Positions 8,458 to 57,207 of a stretch of 64,000 nucleotides of DNA are shown here, in pieces. The number at the start of each line of letters is the position of its first letter. Position 1 is the first letter of the stretch. This stretch comes from Hymenobacter aerophilus DSM 13606 (GTDB lineage Bacteria; Bacteroidota; Bacteroidia; Cytophagales; Hymenobacteraceae). The DNA lies in assembly GCF_000382225.1 (NCBI RefSeq), contig NZ_KB907804.1:124001-188000 (forward strand), read 5' to 3'. A program made the position numbers and the translations under genes. The notes under the pieces are model-generated. The model was not told the origin of the DNA and did not search any database. It saw only the letters and a list, made by a program, of their open reading frames with translations.

Positions 8458-8651
8458 GAAGCTAGAAGTATAAGAAGCTAGAAGTTAGAAGTCAGGAGAT
8501 AGAAGTGGCCGCCGGCCGTTCTGAGGCTGCACAGAGCCCTGTTTCGCAAAATCATTCGTTGATACGGCCGTTTTTGCGTAGTAAGGTTTTTAAGCGATTC
8601 AGAGCGGCAGACGGCCGCTTCTATCTCCTGACTTCTAACTTCTAGCTTCTT
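8458..8651. repeat. Inverted pair of heptad arrays around a decayed core
   Basis: The left array (GAAGCTA, GAAGTAT, a 9-mer, GAAGTTA, GAAGTCA, GGAGATA, GAAGTGG; 8458-8508) is the reverse complement of the right one (8612-8651) across about 38 nt with one mismatch. The inner part (8512-8611) is a much weaker inverted repeat that still shows traces of the CTGAG ends. The right array ends 5 bp before the DUF4126 start codon, so the element occupies the whole spacer between two tandem genes. Confidence 0.9.
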
Positions 8652-8656
8652 TTATT

Positions 8657-17471: not shown

Positions 17472-17888
17472 ATGATCTACATCAGCCGCCAGGAACACTT
17501 CAACGCCGCCCACAAGCTGCACAACCCCAAGTGGAGCGACGAGCGCAACAAGGAAGTGTTCGGCCCCTGCGCCAACGTCAACTGGCACGGCCACAACTAC
17601 GACCTCATCGTGACGGTGAAGGGCCGCCCCGACCCGGAAACGGGCTTTGTCATCGACCTCAAGGAGCTCAGCACGCTCATCCGCACCCACGTCATCGACC
17701 AGGTCGACCATAAGAACCTGAACCTCGACGTGCCCTTCATGGCCGGACAGCTGGCCAGCACCGAAAACCTGATTGTGGCCTTCTGGAACATCCTGCAGCC
17801 CGCCATCGAGGGCATTTCGCCGGCCCGCCTGCATTCGCTCAAGCTCTACGAAACGCCCCGCAACTTCGTGGAGTATTTCGGAGAATAA
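17472..17888 (+). CDS. 6-pyruvoyl/6-carboxy-tetrahydropterin synthase family enzyme
   Basis: A 138-residue T-fold enzyme. Zinc ligands are His14 in HFNAAHKL, and His39 and His41 in HGHNY. The catalytic Cys33 is spaced C-x5-HGH. That spacing is as in animal 6-pyruvoyl-tetrahydropterin synthase, whereas E. coli QueD has C-x3-HGH. So although relatives are usually annotated queD (queuosine precursor), the motif leaves open a tetrahydrobiopterin-type activity. The acidic/His pair in DQVDHKNLN (Asp79, His80) is conserved. It lies 26 bp after the permease and shares a heptad array, which contains its stop codon, with lpxB downstream. Confidence 0.85.
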   Translation: MIYISRQEHFNAAHKLHNPKWSDERNKEVFGPCANVNWHGHNYDLIVTVKGRPDPETGFVIDLKELSTLIRTHVIDQVDHKNLNLDVPFMAGQLASTENLIVAFWNILQPAIEGISPARLHSLKLYETPRNFVEYFGE

Positions 17889-17918
17889 TTATTAATTACT
17901 AATTCTTAATTACTAATT
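17884..17918. repeat. AATTnTT-type heptad array between the pterin enzyme gene and lpxB
   Basis: Five 7-bp units (AATAATT, ATTAATT, ACTAATT, CTTAATT, ACTAATT). The first unit includes the TAA stop of the upstream gene; the last ends 8 bp before the lpxB start. There is only one arm, with no central inverted repeat. Confidence 0.85.
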
Positions 17919-17926
17919 AGCAAAGG

Positions 17927-19048
17927 ATGAAGTACTACCTGATAGCGGGCGAACGGTCCGGGGATTTTCACGCGGCCAGCCTCATGCAGGAGTTGCGCCG
18001 GCAGGACCCTGCGGCCGAGTTCCGCTTCTGGGGCGGCGACCTGATGCAGGCCGAGGGCGGTGAAATGGTGCGCCACTACCAGGAAATGGCCATTATGGGC
18101 TTCTGGGAAGCCGCTACCAGCGTGCTCAAGTTTCGCGGCTACCTCAAGCAGGCCCAGCGCGATATGCTGGCCTGGCAGCCCGATGTGGTAATTCTGGTAG
18201 ACTACGCCGGCTTCAATATGCGGGTGGCTAAGTTTGCCAAGGAAGCCGGCCTGCAGGTGTTCTACTACATCTCGCCCAAAATCTGGGCCTGGAACCAGGG
18301 CCGCGTGCACCAGGTGAAGAAGGTGGTCGACCGCATGTTCGTGATTTTGCCCTTCGAGCAGGAATTCTACCAGCGCTTCGATTACAAAGTCGATTACATC
18401 GGCAACCCCATTGCCGACAGCGTGGGCGAGCACCAGAAATCGGACGACTTTTACCAGCGCAACCAGCTCGACCCCGCGCGGCCCATTATTGCGGTGCTGC
18501 CCGGCTCACGCAAGCAGGAAATCGAGGAGATGCTCTACGAGATGCTGGCCATTCTGCCGCCTTTCCTGAACTACCAGTTCATCGTGGCCGGCGTCGATAA
18601 CCTCGACCGCAACTACTACGCCCACTTCGAGCGCAACAACGTGCGCATCCTCTTCGACCAGACCTACGACCTGCTGGCCCACGCCACCGCCGCGCTGGTA
18701 ACCAGCGGCACGGCCACGCTCGAAACGGCCCTGTTTAACGTGCCCCAAGTGGTCTGCTACCGCACCAGCGCCGTGTCGTACGCCATTGGCAAGGCCGTTA
18801 TCAAGGTGCCGTTTATTTCGCTGGTGAACCTGATTGCGGGCCGCGAAGTCGTGAAGGAGCTTATCCAGGGCGATTTCAACTCCCGCAACCTCGTAGTCGA
18901 GTTGAAGAAAATCACCGAAGACGAAGCGTTTATTGCCCAGCAGAAAGTCGGCTACGCCGAAATTTGGGAGAAGCTGGGCCAGCAGAAATCGGCTGAAAAG
19001 GCGGCGGCCCTGATGGTGGGCTATCTGCGGGAGCGGAAAACGGCGTAG
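17927..19048 (+). CDS. lpxB: Lipid-A-disaccharide synthase
   Basis: A 373-residue GT19 glycosyltransferase that joins UDP-diacylglucosamine and lipid X at the inner membrane in lipid A synthesis. Clear signatures are the N-terminal AGERSGDFHAASLM (residues 7-20), the central YYISPKIWAWNQGR and the VLPGSRKQEIEEML motif, then LVTSGTATLETAL near the nucleotide-sugar site. Length is normal. It is transcribed in the same direction as the permease and pterin genes, separated by a 7-bp repeat array. Confidence 0.95.
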   Translation: MKYYLIAGERSGDFHAASLMQELRRQDPAAEFRFWGGDLMQAEGGEMVRHYQEMAIMGFWEAATSVLKFRGYLKQAQRDMLAWQPDVVILVDYAGFNMRVAKFAKEAGLQVFYYISPKIWAWNQGRVHQVKKVVDRMFVILPFEQEFYQRFDYKVDYIGNPIADSVGEHQKSDDFYQRNQLDPARPIIAVLPGSRKQEIEEMLYEMLAILPPFLNYQFIVAGVDNLDRNYYAHFERNNVRILFDQTYDLLAHATAALVTSGTATLETALFNVPQVVCYRTSAVSYAIGKAVIKVPFISLVNLIAGREVVKELIQGDFNSRNLVVELKKITEDEAFIAQQKVGYAEIWEKLGQQKSAEKAAALMVGYLRERKTA

Positions 19049-19164
19049 GCTGGCCGGGTTTATAACGGCCAGTGGCCGGGTGGTTTTGGCAGGGCGTTGC
19101 GAGGAGGAATAAAGGCGCTATCTTGTTGACCGCTCGTTCTTTCAACCTGCCCTGAAACTGCTTT

Positions 19165-20356
19165 ATGAAAACAGTTAGTCTGCTCCTGCTACTGGCCTTG
19201 CCGACGGCGTCCGTGGTCTTTGCGCAAAGCCCGGTTCTCCCGGCTACCCGGAGTTCTGTCTCTCCTCGCCCTCGCCAAACGCCCCGGCAACTCTACCAGG
19301 CCGCAGCGGCAATGGCCCAACGCAACGAGCCGCGCATGGCCCTGCGGCAGTTGAAGCAGGCCGTAGCAAGTGGCTTTTTCTCGGCCGAACAGATTGAGGC
19401 AGATGCCGATTTCGCGCCGTTGCGAACCCTGGGTGGCTGGCCGCAGCTGCTGAATTCCGCCCGTGCCCGCCAGCAAAAGCACGAAGCCGCTTTCGATCCG
19501 CAATTGATGGCGCTGATTAAAAAAAATCCACTACCAGGACCAACACTACCGCAGGATAGCCACGGCGGCCGAGCGGCAGTACGGCGTGGATTCGCCCCAG
19601 GCCCGAGCGGCTGACCACGAACAGAGCCGCCTCGACCCCCAGCTTATCCGGCAAGTCGACAGCCTGATTGCTATTCACGGCTACCCTGGCAAAAGGCTGG
19701 TGGGTGGTTACCAAACTGATGTAGCCTTTTTCGTTATTCAGCACAATCCCGATGAAAAGTATCTGCCGCTGCTTACTGTTGCCGCTGAGAAAGGCGATGT
19801 CAGGCCATCGGAGCTAGCCATCTTCACCGACCGCATCAGGGCACGGAAAGGAGAAAAACAGCTTTATGGCTCCCAATTAGGGCCGGCCGTGAAGGGCAAG
19901 TACACGCTCGACCCCATCGAAGACGAATCCAACGTAAACGGGCGGCGGGCGGCGGTGGGTTTGGAGCCGCTAGAAGACTACTTGAGCAAATACTACAACA
20001 TTGCCTACCAGGTGCCCACCGTCACCCATAACCCCAACCCGCCCGAACTTTACACCCAGCCCCACACCGACAAGTCGCCGGTGGAGCCGATTGGCGGCTA
20101 CGAAGCCATCTATGCCCGCCTGCAATACCCGGCCGAAGCCCGCCAGAAAAACATCAGCGGTAAGATTACGGTGCAACTTACCATCGACCCCCAAGGAGTG
20201 CCGCAGAACGTAGCCGTGGTGCAGGGCCTCGGCGCCGGCTGCGACGAAGAAGCCCTGCGCGTTATGCGCGCCGCCCGCTTCACCAACCCCGGCGGCCAGG
20301 ACCACGAGATTCGGATGAACCTGCCGTTTCCATACGAGGCGACGGCGGGGAAGTAA
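19165..20356 (+). pseudogene. Frameshifted DUF6624 - TonB C-terminal domain protein
   Basis: Two overlapping frames read as one gene. The first (19165-19614) starts with a signal peptide (MKTVSLLLLLALPTASVVFA) and a helical TPR-like part (AMAQRNEPRMALRQLKQAV), then reaches FDPQLMALIKK. There the frame breaks in a run of eight A (19519-19526). Removing one A continues directly into the other frame as KKIHYQDQHYRRIATAAERQ, which restores a DUF6624-type domain. The second frame ends in a TonB C-terminal domain. It is either a recent inactivating slip, a sequencing error in the homopolymer, or a gene decoded by slippage; the intact codons on both sides show that it is at most recently broken. Confidence 0.8.
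19586..20356 (+). CDS. DUF6624/TonB C-terminal part as a separate reading frame
   Basis: The downstream frame of the broken gene, shown from its first GTG. Residues 1-130 hold the rest of the DUF6624-like domain: YPGKRLVGG, AFFVIQHNPDEKYLPLL, YGSQLGPAVKGKYTLDPIED and the NGRRAAVGLEPLEDYL segment. From about residue 165 a TonB C-terminal fold follows (EAIYARLQYPAEARQKNISG, then VQLTIDPQGVPQNV and GCDEEALRVMRAARFTNPG), like proteins that end with an energy-transducing TonB module. The frame stays open upstream to 19517, so translation from here alone would give a domain lacking its first strand. It lacks its own signal peptide and would be misplaced if made separately. Confidence 0.6.
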   Translation: MDSPQARAADHEQSRLDPQLIRQVDSLIAIHGYPGKRLVGGYQTDVAFFVIQHNPDEKYLPLLTVAAEKGDVRPSELAIFTDRIRARKGEKQLYGSQLGPAVKGKYTLDPIEDESNVNGRRAAVGLEPLEDYLSKYYNIAYQVPTVTHNPNPPELYTQPHTDKSPVEPIGGYEAIYARLQYPAEARQKNISGKITVQLTIDPQGVPQNVAVVQGLGAGCDEEALRVMRAARFTNPGGQDHEIRMNLPFPYEATAGK

Positions 20357-20424
20357 GGCGTTGTGTTGGAGGCGCTCCGAAAGTTCTTGAACCCGATGCG
20401 ACCGGCTTCGGATCGGCCGCTAAC

Positions 20425-22491
20425 TCACGGCTGCTCGCCCAATGCCTGCCGGAGCACGTAGGCCACCGAACTGCTGTAGCGGTCGGGCGTAGCGAGCAGG
20501 GCGGTGAGGTCGGCGTGGGCGGCTTGGTGCCAGGGCGCGTGCCGACTCAGGTGGCCCAGCAGCAGCACGGCCCACTGCCGGCCCAGTTCAGTAGCCTGGT
20601 TGTTTAGGGCTACCTGCACCAGCACGCGGCGCAGCCGGCTGATAAGGGAAGTGGGCAGGGGCGCCAGCAGGGCCAACAGGGCCGCCAGTGCGGTGGGGGC
20701 GTCGTCAGTGCGGCCGGTGGTGTCGAGTAGGTCCCACAGGTGCCGTTTGATGTCATACGGATGACTATCTACCTCCCAAAAACCATATGTCTCCCACCGG
20801 GCCGTCAGCGCATCGATAGTTTCCAGGCTGGTTACCAGGTAATCCACGAAAGCTTCGGCCGAAGCGAAGTACTTCGTAGCGCCCCGTTGCGTAAAGCCCA
20901 GGCGCGAGCCGGGGTCGTCGCGGGTGCCGTAATACCAACTGTGCAGCAGTTGAAAAACCTGCTTCTGCATTTTCGGAGCCGCATCGCCAACCCACACCAA
21001 ATTGCGCAGAAACTGATGTAACCGCAGCTGCTCGGCGCGGGGCGCGGCAGTCAGCCAGTGCTTGACCATCTCCTGCAAGCCCACCGCGGAGTTTTCCGGT
21101 GCGGTGCGCAGGTTATCGATAATCAGCTGAACGGGTAGGGCACCTTGCTCCAAAAGGGGGCGGAGCGCCGGCAAGTTGGGGAAGCTGAACAGGTCGCGCG
21201 CTATCAAATCGTGCGCCAGCGCCGGAACTTCGCTGGCTGGCAGGGCCGGCCAGCCCAGGATGGCGTTGATGTAGGACAGGTCCTGGCGAAACCGGTACGC
21301 GGTGGGGTCTGCGGCTGTTTCCTGGAGCAGCTGGCGGGCATCGTTGGGCTCCAGGTTGAGCACCCGGATACTTTGTAGCGTTCCGCGCAGCTCGTCGGGC
21401 AGGTCGGGGCGCCGGAGCAGCGGCTGCAAAAAGGGACGTAGCCGCAGGCGCGGCATGCCGCGCTGAATCATCATACTAAACAGGTTATTGAGCTGACTAT
21501 CATTGAATTCTGCCAGTAAAGGCCCTAGCTCAAACTCTTGGTTGGTCCGGATCAACACCAAGGCCGCCGCAAAGCGCCGGCGCGGGCTGCGCAGGGCCGC
21601 GTGCAGTGGGTCGGGCAGGGCGGCGGCCAGCGCCACCCCAAAGGCCAGGTCGTCGTCGCCGGTTGTTAGCGCCTCGGCCGGTATGGGCTGCGACTCCCGG
21701 CCCCAGGCGGTGTTCAGCAGGGCCGACCCCACGGCCGCTTCCAGCGGGAGTACCTTGCTGAGGGCGTAAAGCGCGGGCCGCAGCTCGGCATCGTACCTCC
21801 GGAAGTGCAGGTTGACCAAGTAGTGCCAGTGGCTCAGAATGAGGGTGGCTTCCAGTTGTAGGGCGTCATCGGTCAGCTTCAGGGCCTGCACCGCCAGCTC
21901 GACATCGGGAAAGTAGGTTTCGTCGTAGGCTGTGGGTTCTAGGGCCCAGAGGCGCAGACGGGCCAGCGCGGCCAGCACCCGGCTAGTGCCGAAGGGCGAG
22001 TTCAGGCGGGTTTCCAGCAACTTTTCGGCTTCCGTAACACCCTGATGCGGGGGGAGCGTAAGGGCTTGCAGCTCGTCATCGGGCAGGGGCAGGCGGGGCA
22101 GCAGCTCGTTTTCCAGCGCCAGCGCCCAACCGCGCTGGCGCAGCTGGCTTTCCGCCCGGGCCAGGTCATCCAGGTGGCGCTCGGCCACGATGGCGTGGCG
22201 CTGGTAGAGGCGGTCAAAATGCTCGGCCTGATCGGGGGGCATGGCGGCCAGGCGCTCGGGAATCACGAACTGGTCGGAGCCCACGTGCTTAAGCCAGCGG
22301 GCAGGCCCGTAGTGCTCGTCGGGCACGAGGCCGGAGCCGCAGTGGCGGCAGTATTTACCGGCGGGCGTCAGCTGCACGCACCAGTGGCAGCGTTTCTCGC
22401 GGCGCACCACACAGCCGCACTGGCCACACAGGTCGCCAGGTTTCCAGTCGGGCGGTTGCACCTGACCACAGTTCTCACAAGTAGCACGCAT
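20425..22491 (-). CDS. Large double-zinc-ribbon protein with a helical-repeat body, unknown
   Basis: 688 residues. The N-terminus contains two zinc ribbons: Cys5/Cys8, Cys22/Cys25 (also Cys27), Cys35/Cys38 and Cys48/Cys51. A conserved-looking linker follows (about 60-90), with an IPERLAAMPPDQAE motif. The remaining 550 residues are Leu/Ala-rich helices with no repeat signature I can name, suggesting an alpha-solenoid. There is no signal peptide or membrane segment. The gene starts 29 bp after a smaller gene that carries the same ribbon module, so the two are probably co-transcribed and functionally paired. No family recognised; a scaffold or regulatory role would be a guess. Confidence 0.8.
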   Translation of the reverse strand: MRATCENCGQVQPPDWKPGDLCGQCGCVVRREKRCHWCVQLTPAGKYCRHCGSGLVPDEHYGPARWLKHVGSDQFVIPERLAAMPPDQAEHFDRLYQRHAIVAERHLDDLARAESQLRQRGWALALENELLPRLPLPDDELQALTLPPHQGVTEAEKLLETRLNSPFGTSRVLAALARLRLWALEPTAYDETYFPDVELAVQALKLTDDALQLEATLILSHWHYLVNLHFRRYDAELRPALYALSKVLPLEAAVGSALLNTAWGRESQPIPAEALTTGDDDLAFGVALAAALPDPLHAALRSPRRRFAAALVLIRTNQEFELGPLLAEFNDSQLNNLFSMMIQRGMPRLRLRPFLQPLLRRPDLPDELRGTLQSIRVLNLEPNDARQLLQETAADPTAYRFRQDLSYINAILGWPALPASEVPALAHDLIARDLFSFPNLPALRPLLEQGALPVQLIIDNLRTAPENSAVGLQEMVKHWLTAAPRAEQLRLHQFLRNLVWVGDAAPKMQKQVFQLLHSWYYGTRDDPGSRLGFTQRGATKYFASAEAFVDYLVTSLETIDALTARWETYGFWEVDSHPYDIKRHLWDLLDTTGRTDDAPTALAALLALLAPLPTSLISRLRRVLVQVALNNQATELGRQWAVLLLGHLSRHAPWHQAAHADLTALLATPDRYSSSVAYVLRQALGEQP

Positions 22492-22520
22492 ATTTTCTCA
22501 GACAACCAACTGTTTGAAAA

Positions 22521-23093
22521 CTAGATGCGCCCCCGCCGCACGCGGCCCCACAGCTGGTCTTTCTCTTCGGCCGTAGCTTCAGCCAGCCGGCGCGGAATAT
22601 CGTCCTTGGCCAGCCCGTCGCGGCGCAGCAGCAGGGCCAGAGGCAGTTCGGCTACTGGTACAAAGGCGGCGCCGCAGTTGCGGCAGCGGCGGCCGGGCCC
22701 GCTGGAGCCGCACCAGAAACACTGCTCAATGGGCTCGGCTTGGCGGCCGCAGTTCACGCACAGGTCGCCGGGCGTGTAATCCTTCGGTTGCTTGTAGTTG
22801 CAGCTGGCGCAAAACACAGCGTCGGACGAGTCGACGTTGATGGTGGGGGCTACCACAGCCGTGCTGACGGCCGGCGCTTCGGTTACGGCGGCGGGCACGG
22901 CCCACTCCAGTACCCGGGTGGCCACGGCCGGGTCGAGTTCGGGCAGTAGTTCCAGCAGCGTAAGCACCGTGCCCACCTCGCCGAAACTGGCGCGGCTGCT
23001 GACGCCCATATCGACCAGGTTGGTGAGTTGCTCTTCGCTCAGACCTTTGGCTTTGAGGATGTTGCGTTCTAACAGAGTGAATTCGGAATCCAT
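22521..23093 (-). CDS. Double-zinc-ribbon protein, paralogous module, unknown
   Basis: 190 residues from the ATG at 23093 (MDSEFTLL...). The longer frame to 23156 adds an unconvincing hydrophobic extension. A helical N-terminal part (GLSEEQLTNLVDMGVSSRASFGEV) is followed by an Ala/Val linker, then by two zinc ribbons with the same spacing as in the 688-residue neighbour: FCASC, DLCVNC, QCFWC and RCRNC. After them comes an IPRRLAEATAEEKDQLW segment, matching the IPERLAAMPPDQAE of the neighbour. The shared ribbon plus tail makes the two genes paralogous over this module. It is the first gene of a probable two-gene operon. Confidence 0.78.
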   Translation of the reverse strand: MDSEFTLLERNILKAKGLSEEQLTNLVDMGVSSRASFGEVGTVLTLLELLPELDPAVATRVLEWAVPAAVTEAPAVSTAVVAPTINVDSSDAVFCASCNYKQPKDYTPGDLCVNCGRQAEPIEQCFWCGSSGPGRRCRNCGAAFVPVAELPLALLLRRDGLAKDDIPRRLAEATAEEKDQLWGRVRRGRI

Positions 23094-23182
23094 AAAGAAA
23101 GATAAGGCAAGGTGGATAGTTGGTAAGATAGCAAGGGAGGACCTTTTCGCACACAACGGCCCGCGAACAGAGTGACATCAGC

Positions 23183-23848
23183 TCACCGTACCGTCACCAA
23201 CTCCGGACTTTCCAGCATCCGAACGGGCGAAATAACCCGCTCATTTAGCGGCAGCTTGGTGCCGTACCGCTCAAGCATTTTGGCCTGCACGGCGGGGTGG
23301 GAGAGGTCGAACTCGCGGAGCCGCTGGAGCTGGCCGATTTCGCGGCCGGTGGCCTGCTGGTACATTTTCCAGATGAGCTCCGAGCAGTAGATACGTTCAT
23401 CCGACCAGCCAAAGTACAGGTCGTAATTGCGGCCCCGGTACTGCTCGCCGGCGGCCTGCAGCTTGCGTAGCACGGCCGGCGTGAGCACCTTTTCAGCATC
23501 GCGCAGGCGTTTGACCACAAACTGCCTGTCTTTGCCCCGGGCCACCCAAGCCGCCAGGGAAGTTTCGCTTACCGGCTGCACGGCTTCAAATACGCGCCAC
23601 TTGCCGTTTTTATGGAACAGGATACCGCAGTGGCTGTACGCCGAGTGCGTGGCCAGCTGAATAGCTTTACTCTGGGCCGACTGCGAAGTCTGAAAAATCA
23701 GGTCGCCGTTGCGGAGCCGGGGCGCAATGCTTGCCGCGGATTGGCTGGCAACTTGGGCAACCTGGTAGCGCTTGAAGTAGCGCTGGGCGCGTGGAAATGC
23801 GGCCAGCGCAAGGGTGAACAGCAAGAACAGCAGCAACACTCGGCGCAT
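23183..23848 (-). CDS. YiiX/YebB-like permuted papain-fold cysteine hydrolase
   Basis: A 221-residue protein with an N-terminal hydrophobic signal or anchor (residues 3-18), so it acts outside the cytoplasm. The permuted NlpC/P60 pattern is visible: GDLIFQ (48-53) opens the fold, the catalytic His73 lies in YSHCGILF, and the catalytic Cys155 is in the C-terminal YCSELIW motif with Glu157. Relatives are thought to cleave cell-wall peptides or acyl groups. It runs in the same direction as the zinc-ribbon pair and lies 89 bp upstream of it, which may be coincidence. Confidence 0.85.
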   Translation of the reverse strand: MRRVLLLFLLFTLALAAFPRAQRYFKRYQVAQVASQSAASIAPRLRNGDLIFQTSQSAQSKAIQLATHSAYSHCGILFHKNGKWRVFEAVQPVSETSLAAWVARGKDRQFVVKRLRDAEKVLTPAVLRKLQAAGEQYRGRNYDLYFGWSDERIYCSELIWKMYQQATGREIGQLQRLREFDLSHPAVQAKMLERYGTKLPLNERVISPVRMLESPELVTVR

Positions 23849-24076
23849 GGTGTTTTAGAGAAAAGTGAAGGATGGGCAAGTGAAATCTCACAAAGTTTAC
23901 AAGCTTACTTCTCAATATCGGCGCAATAGCTAGGAGTCTTTGCTTTCAAGGCGCCTATCAAGCGCACGCTACTGATAAAACGAATTATACTGAGCACGAC
24001 AAGTGCATCGACAGATATCAAGGAAGCTGTAGAAAACCTTTATCAAGTATTTGCCCGCTACCCGCTCAACCCGGCA

Positions 24077-24736
24077 ATGGAAGCCAGCCCCGTTTACGGC
24101 GACACTATCCAGGCCTGGAATCGGACGCTAACGGCTAACCCATTGCGGGCGCTAACCGAAGAGGACCTGCGAATCTTCTACTTCAAAGCCCTTACAACTT
24201 GGGGGAACCTGAGCGACTTCCGGCACTTTTTGCCGCGCATTCTGGAATTGTTAACAACCTTCAGCGGAGATTGGGAAGAGTGGGTCGCACTCAATAAACT
24301 GAACTACGGGCACTGGCAAACCTGGTCCGAGGCCGTGCAAAAGGCTATGCGCCGCTACCTGCGGGCCCTATGGCATGAGGTGCTGATATCCGACGTCGAA
24401 ATGGTTGATGTCGTTTTTGGGGAATACACAGCCGGTATTGCCGAGGTATATCCTGATTTTGGCCAGCTGCTCCAGCATTGGTTCGAGGTTGAGAGTCCTT
24501 ATAAAGTCCCCCGGCTGGTCTACTTCGTGAATGGAAATTCCAAGCAACTTTTAAAGAAGCAGCGACTGAGTATGTTTACCGGAACCAGTGAGCAAGGCCC
24601 GCTTTTCTTCTCGTGGCTGACCAGTCCGGCACTAATTGAATATCTCACAGCCGACTTCTTCCGCAACCCATCATCGGCCTACGCTGCGGAGCTTTCAGCC
24701 GTGATTCAAATGCTCGAAGTCGCCGCTAAAAAGTAA
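24077..24736 (+). CDS. Uncharacterised protein with apparently missing N-terminal start
   Basis: 219 residues from the first ATG. From memory, relatives share a DFxHFLPRILEL motif (here SDFRHFLPRILELL) and a tryptophan-rich middle, but I know no function for them. The frame remains open for about 140 bp upstream, and the extra codons read like coding sequence (IKEAVENLYQVFARYPLNPA from about 24017), yet no ATG, GTG or TTG lies in that stretch. The natural start may therefore be lost, frameshifted or non-canonical. The region is less GC-rich than its neighbours and is divergent from the cysteine hydrolase gene. Confidence 0.65.
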   Translation: MEASPVYGDTIQAWNRTLTANPLRALTEEDLRIFYFKALTTWGNLSDFRHFLPRILELLTTFSGDWEEWVALNKLNYGHWQTWSEAVQKAMRRYLRALWHEVLISDVEMVDVVFGEYTAGIAEVYPDFGQLLQHWFEVESPYKVPRLVYFVNGNSKQLLKKQRLSMFTGTSEQGPLFFSWLTSPALIEYLTADFFRNPSSAYAAELSAVIQMLEVAAKK

Positions 24737-24790
24737 ACCCGATGCCAGCCTCACGGCCAACATCGGGCAAAAAACCAGGCCAACAGTCGC

Positions 24791-25540
24791 TTACGTCAGC
24801 ATGCCGCCATCGACCTGCAACACCTGGCCCGTAATGTAGGCCGAGTCGTCGGAGGCCAGGAAGGCGGTGGCTTTGGCTACGTCGTCGGGGGTGCCGCCGC
24901 GGCGCAGCGGAATGGCCTTGCGCCACTCATCCACCTGCTTGGCGTCGAGGGCATCGGTCATTTCGGTTTCGATGAAGCCGGGGGCCACCGCGTTGCAGCG
25001 GATATTGCGCGAGCCCAACTCCAGGGCTACCGACTTGGTGAAACCGATGATGCCGGCCTTGGAAGCTGCGTAATTGGCCTGCCCTGCGTTGCCCTTCACG
25101 CCCACCACCGATGACATGTTGATGATGCTGCCGGCTTTTGCCCGCATCATGGGCTTGGTGGCGGCCTTGGTCAGGTTGAACACCGACTTCAGGTTCACGG
25201 CCATTACCTGGTCCCACTGCTGCTCGCTCATGCGCATCAGCAGCCCGTCCTGGGTAATGCCGGCGTTGTTTACCAGAATATCGAGCTTGCCGAACTCGGC
25301 TACCACGTCCTCCACCAGCTTTTCGGCTTCAGCGTACACTGAAGCATCGGAGCGGAAGCCTTTTACTTTGGTACCGGCGGCCGAGAGCTCCTGCTCCAGC
25401 TGCTGGCCTTTTTCTACACTAGAGAGGTAGGTGAAAGCCACCTGGGCGCCCTGCTGGGCAAAATACGCCGCAATGGCGCGGCCAATTCCTTTCGAAGCGC
25501 CCGTAATCAGGGCCACTTTTCCGTCGAGCAGTTTCGTCAT
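24791..25540 (-). CDS. fabG: 3-oxoacyl-[acyl-carrier-protein] reductase
   Basis: A 249-residue classical SDR with fatty-acid-synthesis features. It shows TGASKGIGRA near residue 13, NNAGITQDGLLMRM, SSVVGVKGNAGQANYAASKAG with the catalytic Ser, Tyr and Lys, and the C-terminal LASDDSAYITGQVLQVDGGM, which is characteristic of FabG. The start at 25540 gives MTKLLDGKVALITG; the longer frame to 25621 runs through a heptad array and is rejected. It would reduce beta-ketoacyl-ACP with NADPH. No other fab genes are adjacent. Confidence 0.93.
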   Translation of the reverse strand: MTKLLDGKVALITGASKGIGRAIAAYFAQQGAQVAFTYLSSVEKGQQLEQELSAAGTKVKGFRSDASVYAEAEKLVEDVVAEFGKLDILVNNAGITQDGLLMRMSEQQWDQVMAVNLKSVFNLTKAATKPMMRAKAGSIINMSSVVGVKGNAGQANYAASKAGIIGFTKSVALELGSRNIRCNAVAPGFIETEMTDALDAKQVDEWRKAIPLRRGGTPDDVAKATAFLASDDSAYITGQVLQVDGGMLT

Positions 25541-30737: not shown

Positions 30738-30860
30738 AGCCTGGCGCAAGTGATAAGCTGCTGAAATTCGACTTGTTATCAGGAGGTGTAAAATTTTGGC
30801 TCAGGTGAGCTACACCGGTTTTCAGGTCAGTATAGGACTTGCGGGACCGGCTGGTAGTAA

Positions 30861-30940
30861 CGCGAACTTTGTAGTTCGCGCCCGCGCGCCGTTCGGGCAG
30901 CCCTGCTGGTTCGGGGACGACGCGAACTACAAAGTTCGCG
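30861..30940. repeat. Paired inverted hairpins (CGCGAACT family)
   Basis: A 20-nt quasi-palindrome (30861-30880) with stem CGCGAACT/AGTTCGCG recurs in inverted orientation at 30921-30940, 40 bp away. Each arm is itself a hairpin. It lies at the end of argH on the downstream side. Confidence 0.88.
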
Positions 30941-30967
30941 CTACATCTAAACGATTGGAAACCTCCG

Positions 30968-32293: not shown

Positions 32294-32478
32294 TTAGGCT
32301 TTTAGCTGACAGCTGCTAGCTATTAGCTGCTGTTTATACGACTCGGGCTGAATACTTTGCCGGGCCGTTCAGGTGGTTTTCTCGCAGAGGTTCGCGGAGG
32401 TATGCGCGGAGGTAAAAAAGAGGTATGACGGCCTGCTGAGGATGATTTGAGAGCGACGCTAACAGCTACTAGCTAAAA
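32294..32478. repeat. Inverted pair of TTAGCTG/GCTAACA heptad arrays between two arg genes
   Basis: The array TTAGGCT, a short linker, TTAGCTG, ACAGCTG, CTAGCTA, TTAGCTG (32294-32329) opposes GCTAACA, GCTACTA, GCTAAAA (32458-32478). The second arm contains the stop codon of the M20 gene (complement of CTA at 32473-32475). The inner 130 bp show a G-rich stretch with repeated GCGGAGG but no recognised core. Confidence 0.82.
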
Positions 32479-34601: not shown

Positions 34602-34907
34602 CGCACTGGTATTGCCGGGTTCTTCGTCGCCGAAGAGCCGGTTCGGGGCCCGCCCATCGGCCCGCCCCCGAGAAATTCCCCGAATCAACTGCCCCCTGGT
34701 CCGAGTGTAAGCTTCCGCGTGTTTTTTCCGGCCCGGTGCCGGAACGCCCCGCCCTCCCGGTTCGCCGCCGCCGAGCCCGCCGCCTAAGCGCGGCGGCCGG
34801 TTGCTTTCGGCGCCTGCTGCTCCGCTGTTTCTGCGAGCCGGCGCTGCCTGCCTACGTTCGTGTTTCCACGCCTGCGGCCCTGTTGGGCCGCTAACCGACC
34901 CTCCGAC

Positions 34908-35477
34908 ATGTTGCTCCGAGTCGCCGAAGCTGCCGATGCGCAGCACGCCGAAACCCTGTGCCACTGGTATGCCGAATCGGCCCGTCAGCGGGGCGTGGGC
35001 ATTGCCAAGCGCGACCCTAACTATCTGATTAAGAAGATGGAAAAGGGTGATTCCATCATCGCCTTTCTTGACGGGGCGCTGGCTGGTTTCTGCTATATCG
35101 AGACCTTTGAAGACGCCAAGTTCGTGGTCAATTCCGGGCTGATTGTGAACATGGAGCTGCGACAGGAGGGCCTGGGGCGCGCCATCAAAGAGCGCGTGTT
35201 CGAGCTGTCGCGCACGAAGTATCCAGCGGCCAAAATCTTCGGCATCACCACCAGCGCGGCCGTGATGAAAATCAACTCCGAGCTGGGCTACCGGCCCGTT
35301 ACGTTTCCCGAACTCACCCAGAGCGAGGATTTCTGGAAGGGCTGCGCGAGCTGCAAAAACTACCCGATTCTGCAGGAAAATGAGCGGCGTATGTGCCTGT
35401 GCACCGGCATGGTGTACGACAAACTAAACGACCGTTTCAGCCAGCAAACCATCTCAGTATTGAGTAGTGAGACGTGA
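34908..35477 (+). CDS. GNAT-family N-acetyltransferase, candidate amino-acid N-acetylglutamate synthase
   Basis: A 189-residue acetyltransferase. The ATG at 34908 is preferred to 34860 because it gives MLLRVAEAAD and follows the palindromic leader. The acetyl-CoA site is suggested by LRQEGLGRAIKERVF (residues near 85-100). A Cys-rich tail follows (CASCKNY and CLCTG). As first gene of the rightward arg operon and with no other argA/argJ in the window, the probable role is the first acylation of glutamate. The last codons (VLSSET) and the TGA stop are made of a GTGAGTA heptad array. Confidence 0.8.
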   Translation: MLLRVAEAADAQHAETLCHWYAESARQRGVGIAKRDPNYLIKKMEKGDSIIAFLDGALAGFCYIETFEDAKFVVNSGLIVNMELRQEGLGRAIKERVFELSRTKYPAAKIFGITTSAAVMKINSELGYRPVTFPELTQSEDFWKGCASCKNYPILQENERRMCLCTGMVYDKLNDRFSQQTISVLSSET

Positions 35478-35585
35478 GTAGTGAGTATGAAAAAGTGCGG
35501 TGGCTTAACTCATTTAAGGGTTTGCCCGGCTCGTTCTTTCCCACTCGTCATTCCTCTCACTACTCAATACCCACTACTCAATACT
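35460..35585. repeat. Inverted pair of GTGAGTA/CACTACT heptad arrays, overlapping a gene end
   Basis: TTGAGTA, GTGAGAC, GTGAGTA, GTGAGTA (35460-35487) opposes CACTACT, CAATACC, CACTACT, CAATACT (35558-35585). The left array starts inside the GNAT reading frame and contains its stop codon (35475-35477). The right array ends 4 bp before the argG start codon. Confidence 0.9.
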
Positions 35586-35589
35586 AGAC

Positions 35590-36780
35590 ATGAAAAAGAA
35601 AGTCGTTTTAGCCTACAGCGGCGGCCTCGATACCTCGTTTTGTGCGGTGTACCTGACCCGCGAGCTGGGGCTGGAAGTGCACACGGTTATCGTGAATTCG
35701 GGTGGGTTTTCCGCTGCCGAGCTGGCCGCCATTGAGGCGCGGGCCTACGAGCTGGGCTCCTCCCGGCACGAGGTAATCGACGTAACCCAGCGCTTTTATC
35801 GGGACTGCCTGCGCTACCTGATTTTCGGGAACGTGCTCAAAAACGACACGTATCCGCTGAGCGTAAGTGCCGAGCGCATGTTCCAGAGCCTGGCGCTGGC
35901 CGAGTACGCCCGCGCCCATCAGGCCGACTACATTGCCCACGGCAGCACCGGCGCCGGCAACGACCAGGTGCGCTTCGATGTGGCCTTTTCGGTGATTGCG
36001 CCGGCCACTGAAATCATCACGCCCATCCGCGACCTTAAACTTTCGCGGCAGGCCGAAATCGACTTTCTCAACCAGCACGGCTTCGAAATGAGCTGGGAAA
36101 AGGCGAAATACTCTATTAACAAGGGCATCTGGGGCACCAGCGTGGGCGGCGTCGAAACGCTGACTTCGCGCGAGGCCCTGCCGGAAAGTGCCTACCCGTC
36201 GCAGTTGCAGCGCCAGGATTCGGAGCGCGTGGAAATCACGTTTGAACGCGGTGAGCCCGTGGCTTTGAATGGACAGAAAATGGAGCCGGTAGCCCTGATT
36301 CAGCAGCTGAACGAGCTGGGCGCGGCCTTTGCCATCGGCCGCGATACGCACGTGGGCGACACGATTCTGGGCATCAAGGGCCGGGTGGGGTTTGAGGCGC
36401 CCGCGCCGCTCATCCTCATCAAGGCCCATCACCTGCTCGAAAAGCACACGCTCAGCCGCTGGCAGCTGCTGCACAAGGATTACGTGGCCAATTGGTACGG
36501 CACGCTGCTGCACGAGGCCCAGTACCTCGACCCGGTGATGCGCGACTTCGAGGCCCTGCTCGAATCGAGCCAGGCGCGGGTGTCGGGCACGGTGTTCGTG
36601 ACCTTGCAGCCCTACCGCTTCGAGCTGCAGGGCGTGGAGTCGAAGTTCGACATGATGCAGTCGAAGGTGGCCACCTACGGCGAGGAAAATAACGCCTGGG
36701 ACGGCCGTGACGCCCAGGGCTTCATCAAAATTTTCAGCAACCAGCTGAAGATTCATTCCTCTTTCGACGATGAAAATTAA
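35590..36780 (+). CDS. argG: Argininosuccinate synthase
   Basis: 396 residues; condenses citrulline and aspartate with ATP. The N-terminal ATP-pyrophosphatase motif AYSGGLDTS (residues 8-16) and the GSTGAGNDQVRFD-type stretch (HGSTGAGNDQVRFDVAF) identify it, followed by NKGIWGTSVGG and a C-terminal SKFDMMQSKVATYGEENNAWD. Length and organisation resemble the Bacteroidota type. The end overlaps the argC start by 11 nt (ATGAAAATTAA), implying coupled translation. Confidence 0.96.
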   Translation: MKKKVVLAYSGGLDTSFCAVYLTRELGLEVHTVIVNSGGFSAAELAAIEARAYELGSSRHEVIDVTQRFYRDCLRYLIFGNVLKNDTYPLSVSAERMFQSLALAEYARAHQADYIAHGSTGAGNDQVRFDVAFSVIAPATEIITPIRDLKLSRQAEIDFLNQHGFEMSWEKAKYSINKGIWGTSVGGVETLTSREALPESAYPSQLQRQDSERVEITFERGEPVALNGQKMEPVALIQQLNELGAAFAIGRDTHVGDTILGIKGRVGFEAPAPLILIKAHHLLEKHTLSRWQLLHKDYVANWYGTLLHEAQYLDPVMRDFEALLESSQARVSGTVFVTLQPYRFELQGVESKFDMMQSKVATYGEENNAWDGRDAQGFIKIFSNQLKIHSSFDDEN

Positions 36781-38048: not shown

Positions 38049-39191
38049 ATGGAGCTTTTCAACGTGTATCCGCTCGTCAACATCACGCCCGTGCGCGCAC
38101 TCGGCGCGAAACTCTGGGACGATAAGGGACAAGAGTACCTGGATTTCTATGGTGGCCACGCCGTTATTTCCATCGGCCACAGCCACCCGCACTACGTGCA
38201 GCGCCTCACCGAGCAACTGCAACACATCGGCTTCTACTCCAACTCGGTGCAGATTCCGATTCAGACGGAGCTGGCCCGCAAGCTGGGCCAGGTATCGGGC
38301 TACGAGGACTACGCGCTGTTTTTGTGCAATTCGGGCGCCGAGGCTAATGAGAATGCGCTGAAGCTGGCTTCCTTCCATACCGGCAAAACCCGCGTAGTGG
38401 CCTTTCGAGGCGCGTTTCATGGCCGTACCAGCGGCGCGGTGGCCGCCACCGACAACCCCAAAATTGTGGCGCCATTCAACGCCGGCCACGCCGTCAGCTT
38501 CCTCGAATACGACCTGGCGGCGGTAGAAGCCACGCTGCAAGCCGGGGGCGTGTGCGCCGTAATTATCGAGCCGATTCAGGGCGTGGGCGGCATCATCATG
38601 CCTGCCGATGAATTCCTGCAAGGCTTGGCAGCGCTGTGCCGGCAGTATGGCGCGCTGCTCATTGCCGATGAGGTGCAGAGCGGTTACGGCCGCAGCGGCA
38701 AGTTCTTTGCCCACCAGCACGCCGACATCCGGCCCGATATTATTTCGGTGGCCAAGGGCATGGGCAACGGCTTTCCCATCGGCGGCATCCTGATTTCGCC
38801 CGAGTTAAACGCCTCCTACGGACTGCTGGGCACCACCTTCGGCGGCAACCACCTGGCCTGCGCCGCTGCCCTGGCCGTGCTCGAAGTCATCGAGAACGAA
38901 AAGCTGCTTACCCACGCTACCGAGCTGGGCGGCTACCTCCGCACGGAGTTGCTGGCCCACGCCGGCGCCGAAGAAATCCGCGGCCGGGGCCTAATGGTGG
39001 GCATCAAGTACAACTTCCCCATCAAGGAAATCCGCGACCAGCTGCTCACCGAGCACCACATTTTCGTGGGCAACGCCTCCGACCCCACGGTGCTCCGACT
39101 ACTGCCGCCGCTCAACATCACGCGGGCCGAGGTTGACCGGTTTTTTGGGGCCTTGTACGCGCTGGTGCCGGTTGCAGTCAGAACGGTGTAG
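38049..39191 (+). CDS. argD: Acetylornithine/succinylornithine aminotransferase
   Basis: 380 residues, a class III PLP transaminase. It shows the cofactor phosphate motif NSGAEANE (94-101), the EVQSGYGRSG segment with the conserved Asp207 and the PLP lysine Lys236 in ISVAKGMGNG. It transfers the amino group to acylated glutamate semialdehyde. The C-terminal end is supplied by a repeat: the last codons and the TAG stop lie in the arm of the element at 39185-39294. Confidence 0.95.
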   Translation: MELFNVYPLVNITPVRALGAKLWDDKGQEYLDFYGGHAVISIGHSHPHYVQRLTEQLQHIGFYSNSVQIPIQTELARKLGQVSGYEDYALFLCNSGAEANENALKLASFHTGKTRVVAFRGAFHGRTSGAVAATDNPKIVAPFNAGHAVSFLEYDLAAVEATLQAGGVCAVIIEPIQGVGGIIMPADEFLQGLAALCRQYGALLIADEVQSGYGRSGKFFAHQHADIRPDIISVAKGMGNGFPIGGILISPELNASYGLLGTTFGGNHLACAAALAVLEVIENEKLLTHATELGGYLRTELLAHAGAEEIRGRGLMVGIKYNFPIKEIRDQLLTEHHIFVGNASDPTVLRLLPPLNITRAEVDRFFGALYALVPVAVRTV

Positions 39192-39294
39192 AGACGCATA
39201 CTTGCGTCTCGTCGTTGAACGGCCCACACCCGAACGACCCCAGTTTACCAACAACGTCAGCAACGATTGAGACGCGAATACGCGTCTCTACACC
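39185..39294. repeat. Paired inverted hairpins (GAGACGC family) between argD and carA
   Basis: The arms GGTGTAGAGACGCATACTTG... (39185-39217) and its inverted, slightly diverged copy (39261-39294) are each a hairpin of GAGACGC/GCGTCTC type. The TAG stop of argD lies inside the left arm. Half an element of the same family is at 43702-43737. Confidence 0.92.
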
Positions 39295-43400: not shown

Positions 43401-43707
43401 GGGCACGCACCGTTTCTTCACCGAAAACCACGTGCCCAGCTCCCTGCTCTACTGGCCCGACGAGCTGCAGGAGCCCAACGTGCTGACGTATCTGAAGGAG
43501 AAGAAAATCGACCTGGTCATCAACATTCCCAAGAACCTGAGCAAGGGCGAGCTGGACAACGACTACACCATCCGCCGCGCCGCGGTGGATTCGGGGGTGG
43601 GCCTGCTGACCAACGCGCGGCTGGCCAAGGCCTTCATCAAGGCCTTCTGCACGCTGGAAATGAAGGATTTGAAGATCAAGAGCTGGGGGGAATATCGGGC
43701 GATGTAG
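40471..43707 (+). CDS. carB: Carbamoyl-phosphate synthase large subunit
   Basis: 1078 residues with two homologous halves. The first half begins PNKVLILGSGALKIGEAGEFDYSGSQALKAL, with GGLGSG near 170-180; the second ATP-grasp half begins near SILVLGSGVYRIGSSVEFDWC. It makes carbamoyl phosphate from ammonia, bicarbonate and two ATP, for both arginine and pyrimidines. The ATG at 40471 is preferred to 40432, which adds an unconserved stretch. The stop codon lies within a half-copy of the GAGACGC repeat. Full length and complete. Confidence 0.97.
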   Translation: MTKPNKVLILGSGALKIGEAGEFDYSGSQALKALKEEGIRTVLINPNIATVQTSEGMADDVYFLPVTPYFVEQVIQKEQPDGILVAFGGQTALNCAVALYRAGVFERYGVQVLGTPVQAIIDTEDREIFKEKLDQIGVLSARSVACTSLEEALAAGQTIGFPIIVRAAFALGGLGSGFANNLDELRAVVQQAFTTSDQVLVEESLKGWKEVEYEVVRDAYDNCITVCNMENFDPIGIHTGESIVVAPSQTLSNREYHKLRSIGIQTIRHLGIVGECNIQYALDPASEDYRVIEVNARLSRSSALASKATGYPLAFVAAKLSLGYSLSELKNSVTQTTSAFFEPALDYVVVKLPRWDLGKFSGVNRQIGSAMKSVGEVMAIGKTFEEAIQKGLRMLDTGKRGFVANRPEEGLDNAAIDQLLREPNEERIFAINQAFEAGYSLEQVHQLTRIDHWFLQRLLTIFQLGRQLAAGRATGGLDGLETRLLREVKKAGFSDQQLAVLLLGEGDVKADELRVRARRKALGVLPVVKQIDTLAAEFPARTNYLYLTYHGTEHDLAPETEQSILVLGSGVYRIGSSVEFDWCGVQAVQTAAGEGYKTILINYNPETVSTDYDVSDRLYFEELSFERVMDVLDFEQPGGVILSTGGQIPNNLAMRLEEAEAPILGTTAAHIDEAENRHKFSRIMDELGIAQPRWKELTSLQAMEQFVHDVGYPVLIRPSYVLSGAAMNVVSNAFELEAFLQTAVEVSAEYPVVVSEFMQEAKEIELDAVADKGEIVSYAISEHVEFAGVHSGDATMYYPPQRVYVGTIRKLKRIAEQVARRYAISGPFNIQFLEKNGAISVIECNLRAARSYPFVSKISGNNLIQKATQVLLGKPVARDESERVYDLPFVGVKAPQFSFTRLPGADPVLRVDMVSTGEVGCLGDTAEEALLKAMLSVGYQIPQKSVLISGGPITSKVALLSVTQLLVRKGYQVYATLGTHRFFTENHVPSSLLYWPDELQEPNVLTYLKEKKIDLVINIPKNLSKGELDNDYTIRRAAVDSGVGLLTNARLAKAFIKAFCTLEMKDLKIKSWGEYRAM

Positions 43708-43737
43708 TGACGCATATTTACGTCTCGTCGTTGAACA
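43702..43737. repeat. Half element of the GAGACGC repeat family at the end of carB
   Basis: Thirty-six nt closely match the left arm at 39185-39219, including the shared GTCTCGTCGTTGAAC end. The TAG stop of carB (43705-43707) lies inside it, as the argD stop does in the full copy. Confidence 0.85.
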
Positions 43738-47206: not shown

Positions 47207-47265
47207 CTATTTTGAACTGTTAGCTGAAAGCTATTAGCTGGTAGCTTTTGTGCAGGAAATCATGT

Positions 47266-47314: not shown

Positions 47315-47350
47315 CCGTTTTACAGCTAACAGCTAACAGCTAACAGCTAA

Positions 47351-48643
47351 CTACAGGGCCTTTACAGTCAGCGTCAGGGCTACATCGGTCGTTGAGGTGC
47401 GGTTGATGCCGGTGACGGTGAAGATGGCATACTGGTCGAGTTCGCGCAGGCGGGCGATGATAACGTCGCCAACTACCACGTTGTCGAGTTGGGCTACCTG
47501 GTTGGCGGCGGCCGTGGCCTGGTAGAGCTGGCGGATGCTGCTGAGCGTGGCGTCGGCGTAAGCGGCTGGGCCGCCCTTGGCTATCCGTACAAACTTGGTG
47601 GTATTAAGGGCCTGCAGGCGCACGGCGTTGCCGGCTGTACTGGTAATGGCTACGTCTTTGGCTGTTACAGGCTCCGCGGCAGCCACCGGGGCGAAAGTCG
47701 TCAGGTCGAAGGCCGCCAGGTCGCCGCCGGTGGTGCCAGTGTAGCTAAGCGTGGCGGTGCGGGCCGCCGCCAGGGGCGTAGCGGCCACTGGCGTAATGGC
47801 CGGAGCCGTGGCCGAGGCCGACCGGAAGCTGGCCGCCAGCGGCGGGTTGCGGTCCTGAAAGCGGCTCTTGGCCTCAAAACGAAATACAACGGGCTGGCCC
47901 GCGCTACCGGCTGGTAGGGCCACATCCACGTTTACGGTGGTGGCGGCCCCGCTTTGGGTACCGGCTACCGGCACGCGTTGGCGGGCAAAGCGCCGCTCGG
48001 CCGCCGTGCCCACCTGCACGTAGGTAATCAGGCTGTCGATATTACTGTAGAGCGTGCCAGCGGCCGTGAGGGAAGAAGCCGCGTTGATGCCGCCCTCGTT
48101 GAGCAGCACCGGAAAGCGCACCACGTCGCCGGGAGCTGGGGCAGCCCCCACGGGCAGCGTTACGTTGCTGGAGGCTTTCAGGCTGATGGTAGGCGTGGCT
48201 TCGGCCAGCCGGAAGCTGAAGCTGCGGTCCTTGGTCTGGCCATTGTCGCTCACCAGCACGGCGTCCACCTTCACGTTGGCTTTGTTGGCGCCGGCCGGAA
48301 CCGTGTAGTTCACCACCAGCGTATCGCTCTGGCGGATGCGCGAGAAGGCCGCCGAATACGGAATAGTGCGCACCAGCGTCGAGTCGCGGCCGGGCTCCAC
48401 TTTCTGGTACAGCCGGATTTCCTTCAGCGGGGCACTCTGGGGCGCGAAGCGCAGCTCGAACTGCACTACCTCGCCCGTGGCGTACTTGGAGGCCGTGCCC
48501 AGGGCGTTGGCCGTGAAGGTGGGCAGCTGGGCCCCGACTTCGGAATAGTACGTATCCAGCTCCTTCTCGCAGCTGCTCAGCAGCAGCACCGCCGCCAGCG
48601 GCAGCAGCCGGACCGGGCGGGAAAACAAGGATGTAGGGTTCAT
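47351..48643 (-). CDS. SusE/SusF-like surface lipoprotein of the SusCD locus, unknown
   Basis: 430 residues with lipobox LLSSC (Cys25). The mature protein is beta-rich with repeated Ig-like patterns: TGEVVQFELRFAPQSAPLKEIRLYQKV, then DVVRFPVLLNEGGINAA, then a C-terminal VDGVI-like strand set ending in TDVALTLTVKAL. It follows susD and susC in the same direction. In such operons, the third gene usually encodes a surface glycan- or ligand-binding lipoprotein, but nothing here identifies the ligand. I do not recognise a named family. Confidence 0.7.
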   Translation of the reverse strand: MNPTSLFSRPVRLLPLAAVLLLSSCEKELDTYYSEVGAQLPTFTANALGTASKYATGEVVQFELRFAPQSAPLKEIRLYQKVEPGRDSTLVRTIPYSAAFSRIRQSDTLVVNYTVPAGANKANVKVDAVLVSDNGQTKDRSFSFRLAEATPTISLKASSNVTLPVGAAPAPGDVVRFPVLLNEGGINAASSLTAAGTLYSNIDSLITYVQVGTAAERRFARQRVPVAGTQSGAATTVNVDVALPAGSAGQPVVFRFEAKSRFQDRNPPLAASFRSASATAPAITPVAATPLAAARTATLSYTGTTGGDLAAFDLTTFAPVAAAEPVTAKDVAITSTAGNAVRLQALNTTKFVRIAKGGPAAYADATLSSIRQLYQATAAANQVAQLDNVVVGDVIIARLRELDQYAIFTVTGINRTSTTDVALTLTVKAL

Positions 48644-56686: not shown

Positions 56687-56700
56687 CGTATCGTTCCTTT

Positions 56701-57199
56701 AGCTTTCACGCAGTGTCTCGGGGTGGGTGACGCGGTGTCTCGCAGTGCCGTTCTTACAGGCCGTTTACCAATCGGTGCATGTGGTCTTTGAGGTGGGCGA
56801 CGTTGAAGTTAATGAGCTGGCCGAGCTTCAGGCCGGAAAGCTTAAGATACGTTAGCAGCTGTTTGAAGTGGACTTCCTGCAGGGTTTCTACCGATTTGAT
56901 TTCGACGATAACCTTGCCCTCAACTACTAAATCAAGCCGAAAGCCTGCTTCCATCTGCACGCCGGCATACACCATCGGCAACGCCAACTGCGTTTGTACC
57001 AGCAGCCCCACTTGGCGCAATTCATGCGCCAGCGCCACCTCATACACCGATTCCAGCAGACCCGGCCCCAGAGCCGAATGCACCTTGAAAGCGGCCTTTC
57101 TTACCTCGAAAGAAACGTCATTCTCCTGCATAGATGTAGAATGTAAGAACGACACTGCGCTACCCTGCGTCACCCACCCCGAGACACTGCGTGAAAGCT
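56701..57199. mobile_element. GxxExxY cassette with 58-nt terminal inverted repeats
   Basis: Inverted repeats at 56701-56758 and 57142-57199 (AGCTTTCACGCAGTGTCTCG... at the outer end, ...GTTCTTACA at the inner) enclose a single gene. The GxxExxY stop codon lies within the left repeat and its start lies 10 bp from the right one. The whole 499-bp unit sits between the acyl-CoA ligase start and the NagZ-fusion stop. No transposase is present, so any mobility would depend on one in trans. Confidence 0.75.
56754..57131 (-). CDS. GxxExxY protein (PD-(D/E)XK-like)
   Basis: 125 residues from the ATG at 57131. The name-giving G24-x-x-E27-x-x-Y30 motif (GLLESVYE) is present, and the C-terminal half shows the nuclease-like D...E-x-K signature in FRLDLVVEGKVIVEIKSVE. 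The family is widespread in Bacteroidota with no assigned function. The upstream ATG at 57173 would begin inside the terminal repeat. The TAA stop is inside the left repeat, so gene and repeat form a unit. Confidence 0.9.
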   Translation of the reverse strand: MQENDVSFEVRKAAFKVHSALGPGLLESVYEVALAHELRQVGLLVQTQLALPMVYAGVQMEAGFRLDLVVEGKVIVEIKSVETLQEVHFKQLLTYLKLSGLKLGQLINFNVAHLKDHMHRLVNGL

Positions 57200-57207
57200 A
57201 CAAAGAA

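Follow-up and report, generated by a model that had tools for sequence, protein, structure and literature searches.

The window analysed here is a stretch of 64 kb out of the 4.25 Mb genome of Hymenobacter aerophilus (G000), in which a GNAT-like gene, so named in the original prediction made from this DNA, ends inside one arm of an inverted repeat. Its reading frame gave no Pfam family at E 0.001 and reached 27.3 bits against an NCBIfam N-acetyltransferase model, under the cut-off of 154. As predicted, the last six codons and the TGA of the gene are built of GTGAGTA units:

34860-35477, plus strand: GNAT-like gene, an ORF with stop codon TGA at 35475-35477
35456-35487, plus strand: left heptamer arm of GTGAGTA type, containing the last six codons and the stop of the GNAT-like gene
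35556-35585, plus strand: right arm, 87% complementary to 35456-35485 (inverted pair I10; RNA fold z -6.88)

The motif GTGAGTAGTGAGTA, with at most one mismatch, occurs in 6 copies in the window, against 0 in 100 shuffles. A terminator within this element was considered and rejected, the sole scan match in 35400-35700 being 35429-35443, ahead of the element. The number of residues after a conserved FSQQ-like motif is equal in six relatives that are free of the array (G004, G008, G029, G006, G001 and G013), while of the last seven residues 3 agree and 4 differ when compared with G008 and G029. The array is also present in G026, and protein lengths deviate in some more distant relatives (L030, L031, L032, L034 and L038), in two of which (L030 and L034) the GNAT stop overlaps the argG start as TAATG. 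A similar end was observed in the argC orthologue of G004 (L050), which reads AAAGCTATTAGCTTT[TAG]CCACTAGCTGTCAGC and thereby has array-like last codons at an unchanged protein length, as does the GNAT gene in G000.

The original prediction had extended this finding to the stop codons of further genes in the window, and had read insertion right at gene ends, replacing stop codons, as a consistent placement rule. The elements located at these ends and beside them are as follows:

5520-5543, plus strand: heptamer array spanning the stop codon of the peptide-binding protein gene, outer part of the inverted repeat 5511-5590 / 5608-5687 (pair I1)
5655-5686, plus strand: partner array of 5520-5543 in the palindromic element, with 6 nt between its end and the stop of gene 5693-6412 on the minus strand
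8469-8654, no strand assigned: another palindromic element, its heptamer arms at 8469-8551 and 8572-8654, 19 nt past a stop (pair I2)
17886-17919, plus strand: heptamer array that opens with the stop codon of the pterin (PTPS) gene (lag-7 runs, profile search)
32460-32475, minus strand: TAGCTNN stretch, degenerate, where the M20 gene ends
39188-39210, plus strand: GTAG-tagged palindrome whose TAG is the argD stop (inverted pair I15)
39269-39291, minus strand: second, inverted GTAG-tagged palindrome of the argD pair
43704-43726, plus strand: degenerate GTAG-tagged palindrome whose TAG is the carB stop (repeat family D9)
47322-47351, minus strand: heptamer array that immediately follows the SusE-like stop, with partner arm 47217-47240 (pair I19)

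The overlap of repeats with gene ends is thus real and exceeds chance, but the prediction had mixed two unrelated repeats and had included one gene that is no case at all. The stop of the peptide-binding protein (5522-5524) lies within a heptamer array and that of the pterin enzyme (17886-17888) opens one, both as had been stated. The M20 stop (32473-32475) does fall in a short TAGCTNN stretch, but this is degenerate and has a lag-7 score of only 5, and at the SusE-like gene the array overlaps the stop codon in its final base alone, at 47351. At the stop of the GxxExxY gene (56754) no tandem repeat was found, nor did an orthologue of this gene turn up in the stretches of relatives compared. 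The argD and carB stops (39189-39191 and 43705-43707) do lie in a repeat, but this is a GTAG-tagged, REP-like palindrome (GTAGAGACGC...) whose TAG serves as the stop, and not a heptamer array. A search of argD against plasmids gave no match. Two side observations concern the surroundings of GxxExxY: a AGCTTTCACGCAGTGTCTCGGGGTGGGTGACGC stretch stands on either side of the GxxExxY gene (window 56699-56735 and near 57180-57207), and in 55058-57131 two genes including GxxExxY are without a match in the G026 stretches compared, both neighbours having one. The alignment of the window with G026 also skips from 19047 to 24792, genes 19-22 (19049-24790) being unmatched in the G026 stretches compared.

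To place these ends in context, period statistics were taken from an 862 kb sample of G000, window included, with 694 gene ends set by a simple gene caller of our own, on whose calls the edge and gap counts depend. Self-similarity at lag 7 gave 13 runs in the window and, in the sample, 47 runs of score at least 12 (40 of them mostly non-coding); lag 8 gave 24 runs, all non-coding, lag 6 gave 10 with 1 non-coding, and lags 4 and 5 gave 0. A stop codon lies wholly inside a period-7 run at 10/694 gene ends and inside a period-8 run at 2, the control periods 4, 5, 6, 9, 11 and 13 yielding 0 and periods 10 and 12 yielding 2 each. The units are diverse. An inverted partner lies no more than 350 nt away for 49 of the 72 arrays whose sequence is non-coding over a quarter of its length or more, where random neighbourhoods would give 5.3. 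Many arrays form the arms of palindromic elements, in which a GTCAT(T/C)CTGAGC core is frequent; three elements fold with RNA z scores of -6.9 to -8.2, and Rfam gave 0 matches in the window at gathering score. Octamer arrays of the GGTGATTT and GGTGAGGT types also occur directly behind stops (e.g. C13:61411, C5:14987), often ahead of a CTGTCATCCTGAGC core, and AGTGAGA heptamers stand ahead of ACGTCATTCTGAGC cores. Cyanobacterial STRR heptamers form arrays between genes as well, and the Hymenobacter arrays are likened to them by description only.

Genome-wide there are 75 GTAGAGACGC tips of the GTAG palindromes, the reversed control pattern giving 0, and in the stretches compared a complementary stem lies near the tip in 66/74 GTAGAGACG[CT] tips, a short palindrome of 20-40 bp; the 8/74 tips without a hairpin were dropped from tip counts. 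These palindromes are mostly extragenic (4/66 within called genes), and head-to-head pairs are seen in the genome site list, e.g. at 39188-39291. Where a tip faces the 3' end of a same-strand gene, its TAG is the stop in 7 of 32 cases and gaps of 1-8 nt number 0; the other 25 lie 9 to 848 nt off (nearest gaps 9, 9, 11 and 17), and among gaps within 100 nt 7/21 are exactly 0. The carB tip, which reads GTAGTGACGC, is not part of the 32. In two other GTAG families of the 862 kb sample, the TAG is the stop in 2/5 and 1/2.

The alignment of C-termini with orthologues, proposed by the original prediction as the means to see whether family ends were lost at the junction, speaks against stop replacement at several genes. 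In a named collection one G000 gene has four relatives at 97, 96, 97 and 87% identity, all of them Hymenobacter, and the genus names rest on this gene. Besides GNAT, the peptide-binding protein has an identical stop position in the array-free G029, and carB has the same stop position and the same last codon ATG in the palindrome-free G006, G001 and G013, there followed by TAA. The stop position is likewise unchanged without the repeat at C19:86674 (G026) and at the C21 gene (pair G016/G030), and the SusE-like gene has an identical stop in G026, where the array is much shorter. At C1:297445 the protein ends RSEK* in G000 and has the same RSEK* and TGA in Hymenobacter sp. ISL-91 and H. actinosclerus, which carry other, octamer-like repeats behind the stop, the heptamer array being absent in ISL-91; two remaining relatives have a different, longer end. 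Judged from the aligned sequences, this host end is common to relatives and the repeat behind it differs, which again argues against stop replacement.

Elsewhere the ends of orthologues do differ. The pterin enzyme is 1 residue shorter than its G026 and G029 orthologues, and argD is 1 residue longer than in the palindrome-free G006, G008 and G013 and 11 shorter than in the palindrome-free G001. M20 is 3 residues longer than in G004, G006, G008 and G013, and in G029, where a TAGCT stretch is present, 5 residues longer than in the same four. The claim that repeats encode last residues together with the stop is borne out for some genes, namely GNAT, M20, C5:10183 and C5:67343. At C5:10183 the tail is VSSE* in G000, where the unit is GTGAGTA, and VRSEK* in G008, where it is GTGAGAA, the end being rearranged in G026 and G029 and the gene not found when looked for in G004, G034 and G003. 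C5:67343 ends AVSC* in G000 and G026 and two residues earlier in G029 (AT*) and G004 (AG*), in both of which an array again opens with the stop triplet. A matched change of both arms was considered here and rejected: in G004 the left unit is TTAGTTG and the right arm still AGCTAAC, so the two arms do not always change together. Changed protein length was also rejected as a mark of repeats: it was seen in 2/10 gene-relative pairs (4 genes) with an array in G000 only, in 4/8 pairs (2 genes) with a palindrome in G000 only, and in 26/105 pairs (37 genes, including M20) in which neither end carried a repeat under the thresholds applied, after exclusion of 3/135 pairs from genes 8 and 32 whose ends were misaligned or could not be compared.

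We consider it likely, with a probability of about 0.7, that these fast-changing intergenic repeats carry stop triplets and end genes at their edges without aiming at stop codons. Two kinds of fast-changing, stop-carrying repeats would occupy the intergenic spaces of this Hymenobacter genome, the heptamer and octamer arrays, mostly arms of inverted repeats, extending up to the last sense codon. Since most units hold a stop in each sense frame, an array edge on or inside a gene end would provide a stop along with as many as six or so residues, and since the tip of the GTAG palindrome is TAG, an in-frame copy at or just before the old stop would end the protein there. The stop codon, unlike the sense codons, would be unprotected by selection, because the repeat brings its own. 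Selection is presumably the cause of the sharp array edge, the GTAGAGACGC palindromes probably spread by transposition, and the arrays may originate from slippage or recombination. The service of a repeat as a stop would then be mostly a side effect, and not a sign of repeats aiming at stops. This reading builds on the observed positions of the repeats, the distributions of edges and gaps, the absence of a phase lock and the stop positions of orthologues.

The distributions of edges and phases likewise do not support the placement rule. The left edges of 49 heptamer arrays, which include a few orthologous pairs, fall at -19 to -5 relative to the stop in 6 cases, at -2 to 0 in 8, at +1 to +10 in 26 and beyond in 9; edges on the stop codon (8/34 against 3/13 expected under a flat density) show no excess. 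Among arrays that exclude the stop, a sense stop column stands in phase 0 in 5/19 heptamer and 1/13 octamer cases, in a test for which stretch L132 was left out and identical arrays were counted once, so that the units show no phase lock. Arrays therefore start anywhere from the stop onward and seldom within the gene, and one that takes in the stop brings its own: of the 36 arrays lying no more than 25 nt from a 3' end, 25 have sense stops in all three frames, whereas 7 have none, a point against the preferred reading. The part of the claim that concerned insertion at gene ends fared better, in that elements abut 3' ends beyond uniform placement, although their edges are not focused on the stop: elements overlap or lie within 7 nt of the 3' end at 29/67 flanks, against a mean of 14.6 under a null of uniform placement of elements within the same gaps, and 0/5000 simulations reach 29. 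At 5' ends the same test gave 8/51 against 6.8. Some preference for 3' ends beyond simple filling thus remains, which weighs against the preferred reading.

Targeted insertion, in which a mobile element would recognise the gene end and the GTAG palindromes would target a pre-existing ...TG-TAG, is the alternative that survives best, and we regard it as unlikely. TG precedes 63/66 palindrome tips, which makes a target sequence possible, and several orthologue ends fit such a target. Six palindrome-ended genes were compared in 16 relatives (16, 12, 16, 11, 6 and 16 displayed per gene). At C19:86674, G026 has CTG/TAG without a palindrome, G004 has CTG/TGA one residue earlier and others differ. 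At C11:99245, ATG/TAG is accompanied by another GTAG palindrome in G004, G026 and G029, while none is visible beside the ATG/TAG of G008; 12 more distant relatives have Tyr at the same end position where the nearest four and G000 have ATG-TAG, so that by sequence comparison the last codon may have arrived with the element, a further point against the preferred reading. The C21 orthologue has a copy at GAG/TAG in G030 and GAG/TAG without one in G016, and carB keeps its ATG at the same place. Against targeting, the 25/32 tips facing a 3' end off the stop, the repeat-free orthologues of carB (TAA) and M20 (TAA/TGA), which never have TAG, and the heptamer edges without a peak on the stop all speak. 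The copy at C21:1750 lies inside the reading frame of relatives, the four nearest of which continue past GTG (by eight residues in G008), so that the G000 protein looks truncated, G034 and G003 ending at almost the same place without a palindrome. The C4:99860 copy stands two residues before the G008 stop, G008 being two residues longer and G004, G026 and G029 stopping one residue earlier. Moreover, any in-frame copy at or before the old stop yields a gap of 0, and the spike of gaps at 0 therefore requires no targeting. The ends of C13:14686 and C7:38129 are highly variable among relatives, G029 having its own palindrome copy elsewhere in the former, and in M20 of G004 a palindrome copy gives TAG at a position occupied by TGA in G008 and by TAA in G006 and G013.

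Arrays could also have grown by tandem duplication of the host stop together with the nucleotides that follow, the stop being first and the array copying it, an origin that is attractive from single alignments and that the phase test did not bear out. The end of C1:297445, AGTGAGAARTGA, exists in ISL-91 without the heptamer array, and several arrays consist of whole units from the stop, e.g. [TAG]GGAT followed by TAGGAAT at 5522 and [TAG]CGGT followed by TAGCGGT in G026. However, stop-including arrays are in phase by definition and the stop-excluding ones lack the lock, and the same unit families also adjoin start codons; we therefore hold such seeding to be improbable. Slightly more improbable still is a selected function, in which stop-dense inverted arms would form a boundary that ends translation in all frames from both sides, with a hairpin protecting or ending the mRNA. 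The sense stops in all three frames of 25/36 arrays near 3' ends, the excess of inverted partners and the strong folds of three elements agree with such a role, but 7/36 of these arrays have no sense stop, no intrinsic terminator fitting the GNAT element was found in 35400-35700, and orthologous gaps carry quite different elements or nearly none, as with the TAATG overlap of GNAT and argG. Coincidence of unrelated sequence, which the repeat-free GxxExxY stop and the degenerate M20 repeat would fit, is very improbable given the period-7 runs over stops at 10/694 ends, against 0 to 2 at other periods, and the 7/21 tip gaps of exactly 0.

Both effects that make up the preferred reading, of stop-carrying repeats ending genes at their edges, have been published for other bacteria. 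Di Nocera et al. (2013, PMC3733652) state that the termini of GTAG-tagged REPs "often provide" neighbouring ORFs with their TAG stop. The Hymenobacter palindromes resemble these REPs, as far as the parts of that paper used here describe them, in being short, with a GTAG tip, many copies, inverted pairs and positions near gene 3' ends. In these parts GTAG repeats are given for Proteobacteria, Cyanobacteria, Chloroflexi and the PVC group, and Bacteroidetes appear under CGTC repeats only; with its AGACGC stem the Hymenobacter palindrome is likened to GTAG REPs by general features and not by the 24 family consensuses of PMC3733652. For the TAACTGA heptamer direct repeats, 13 sets overlap the stop of the upstream gene, which was deemed a necessary consequence of the unit (MacGregor 2015, PMC4679880). 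In the excerpts of that work used here, these are intergenic heptamers like the Hymenobacter arrays and the TAACTGA unit has one-strand stops in all frames, whereas the Hymenobacter arrays have many units (TAACTGA in 0/84) and are mostly in inverted pairs.

As regards mobility, the G000 genome holds three Y1_Tnp (PF01797) loci. One of these genes, at C9:71185 (L255), is flanked by inverted GTAG-type palindromes that are GTAGCGCGAACTTTGTAGTTCGCG-like, the same pair standing at window 30857-30944, an arrangement like that of the RAYT / REP system as outlined in part of Nunvar et al. (2010, PMC2817692), with a Y1_Tnp gene between inverted palindromes. A second locus, L254 (G000:C35, around 29996), sits between AAAAGCCCCAGCGGGGCGACA repeat copies. 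Within about 1.5 kb of the Y1_Tnp genes, none of the 3 loci has a GTAGAGACGC palindrome, and we accordingly do not claim mobilisation of this palindrome by a RAYT of its own. A literature search on REPs in Hymenobacter found nothing, one on intergenic tandem repeats in Hymenobacter found, by titles, nothing on gene-end arrays, and one on REPs and ribosome rescue found nothing on REPs; we do not claim that either Hymenobacter case is unpublished.

What is added here is the occurrence of both effects in Hymenobacter, where the units are different and the arms mostly inverted, together with the orthologue tests. A real and simple effect, in which stop-carrying repeats cut genes at their edges, is thereby told apart from a claim of targeting, and edge density, unit phase and orthologue ends provide the means to distinguish the two. 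The differences between species in array-coded tails as units change (C5:10183 and C5:67343), and an array pattern over the last codons at constant length (GNAT in G000 and G026, argC in G004), tentatively point to the further and rather doubtful possibility that new protein C-termini arise steadily in Hymenobacter from the turnover of repeats between genes. The genus joins the bacteria whose GTAG palindromes supply stop codons, and in repeat-rich Bacteroidota gene ends and C-terminal differences may be the edges of repeats.
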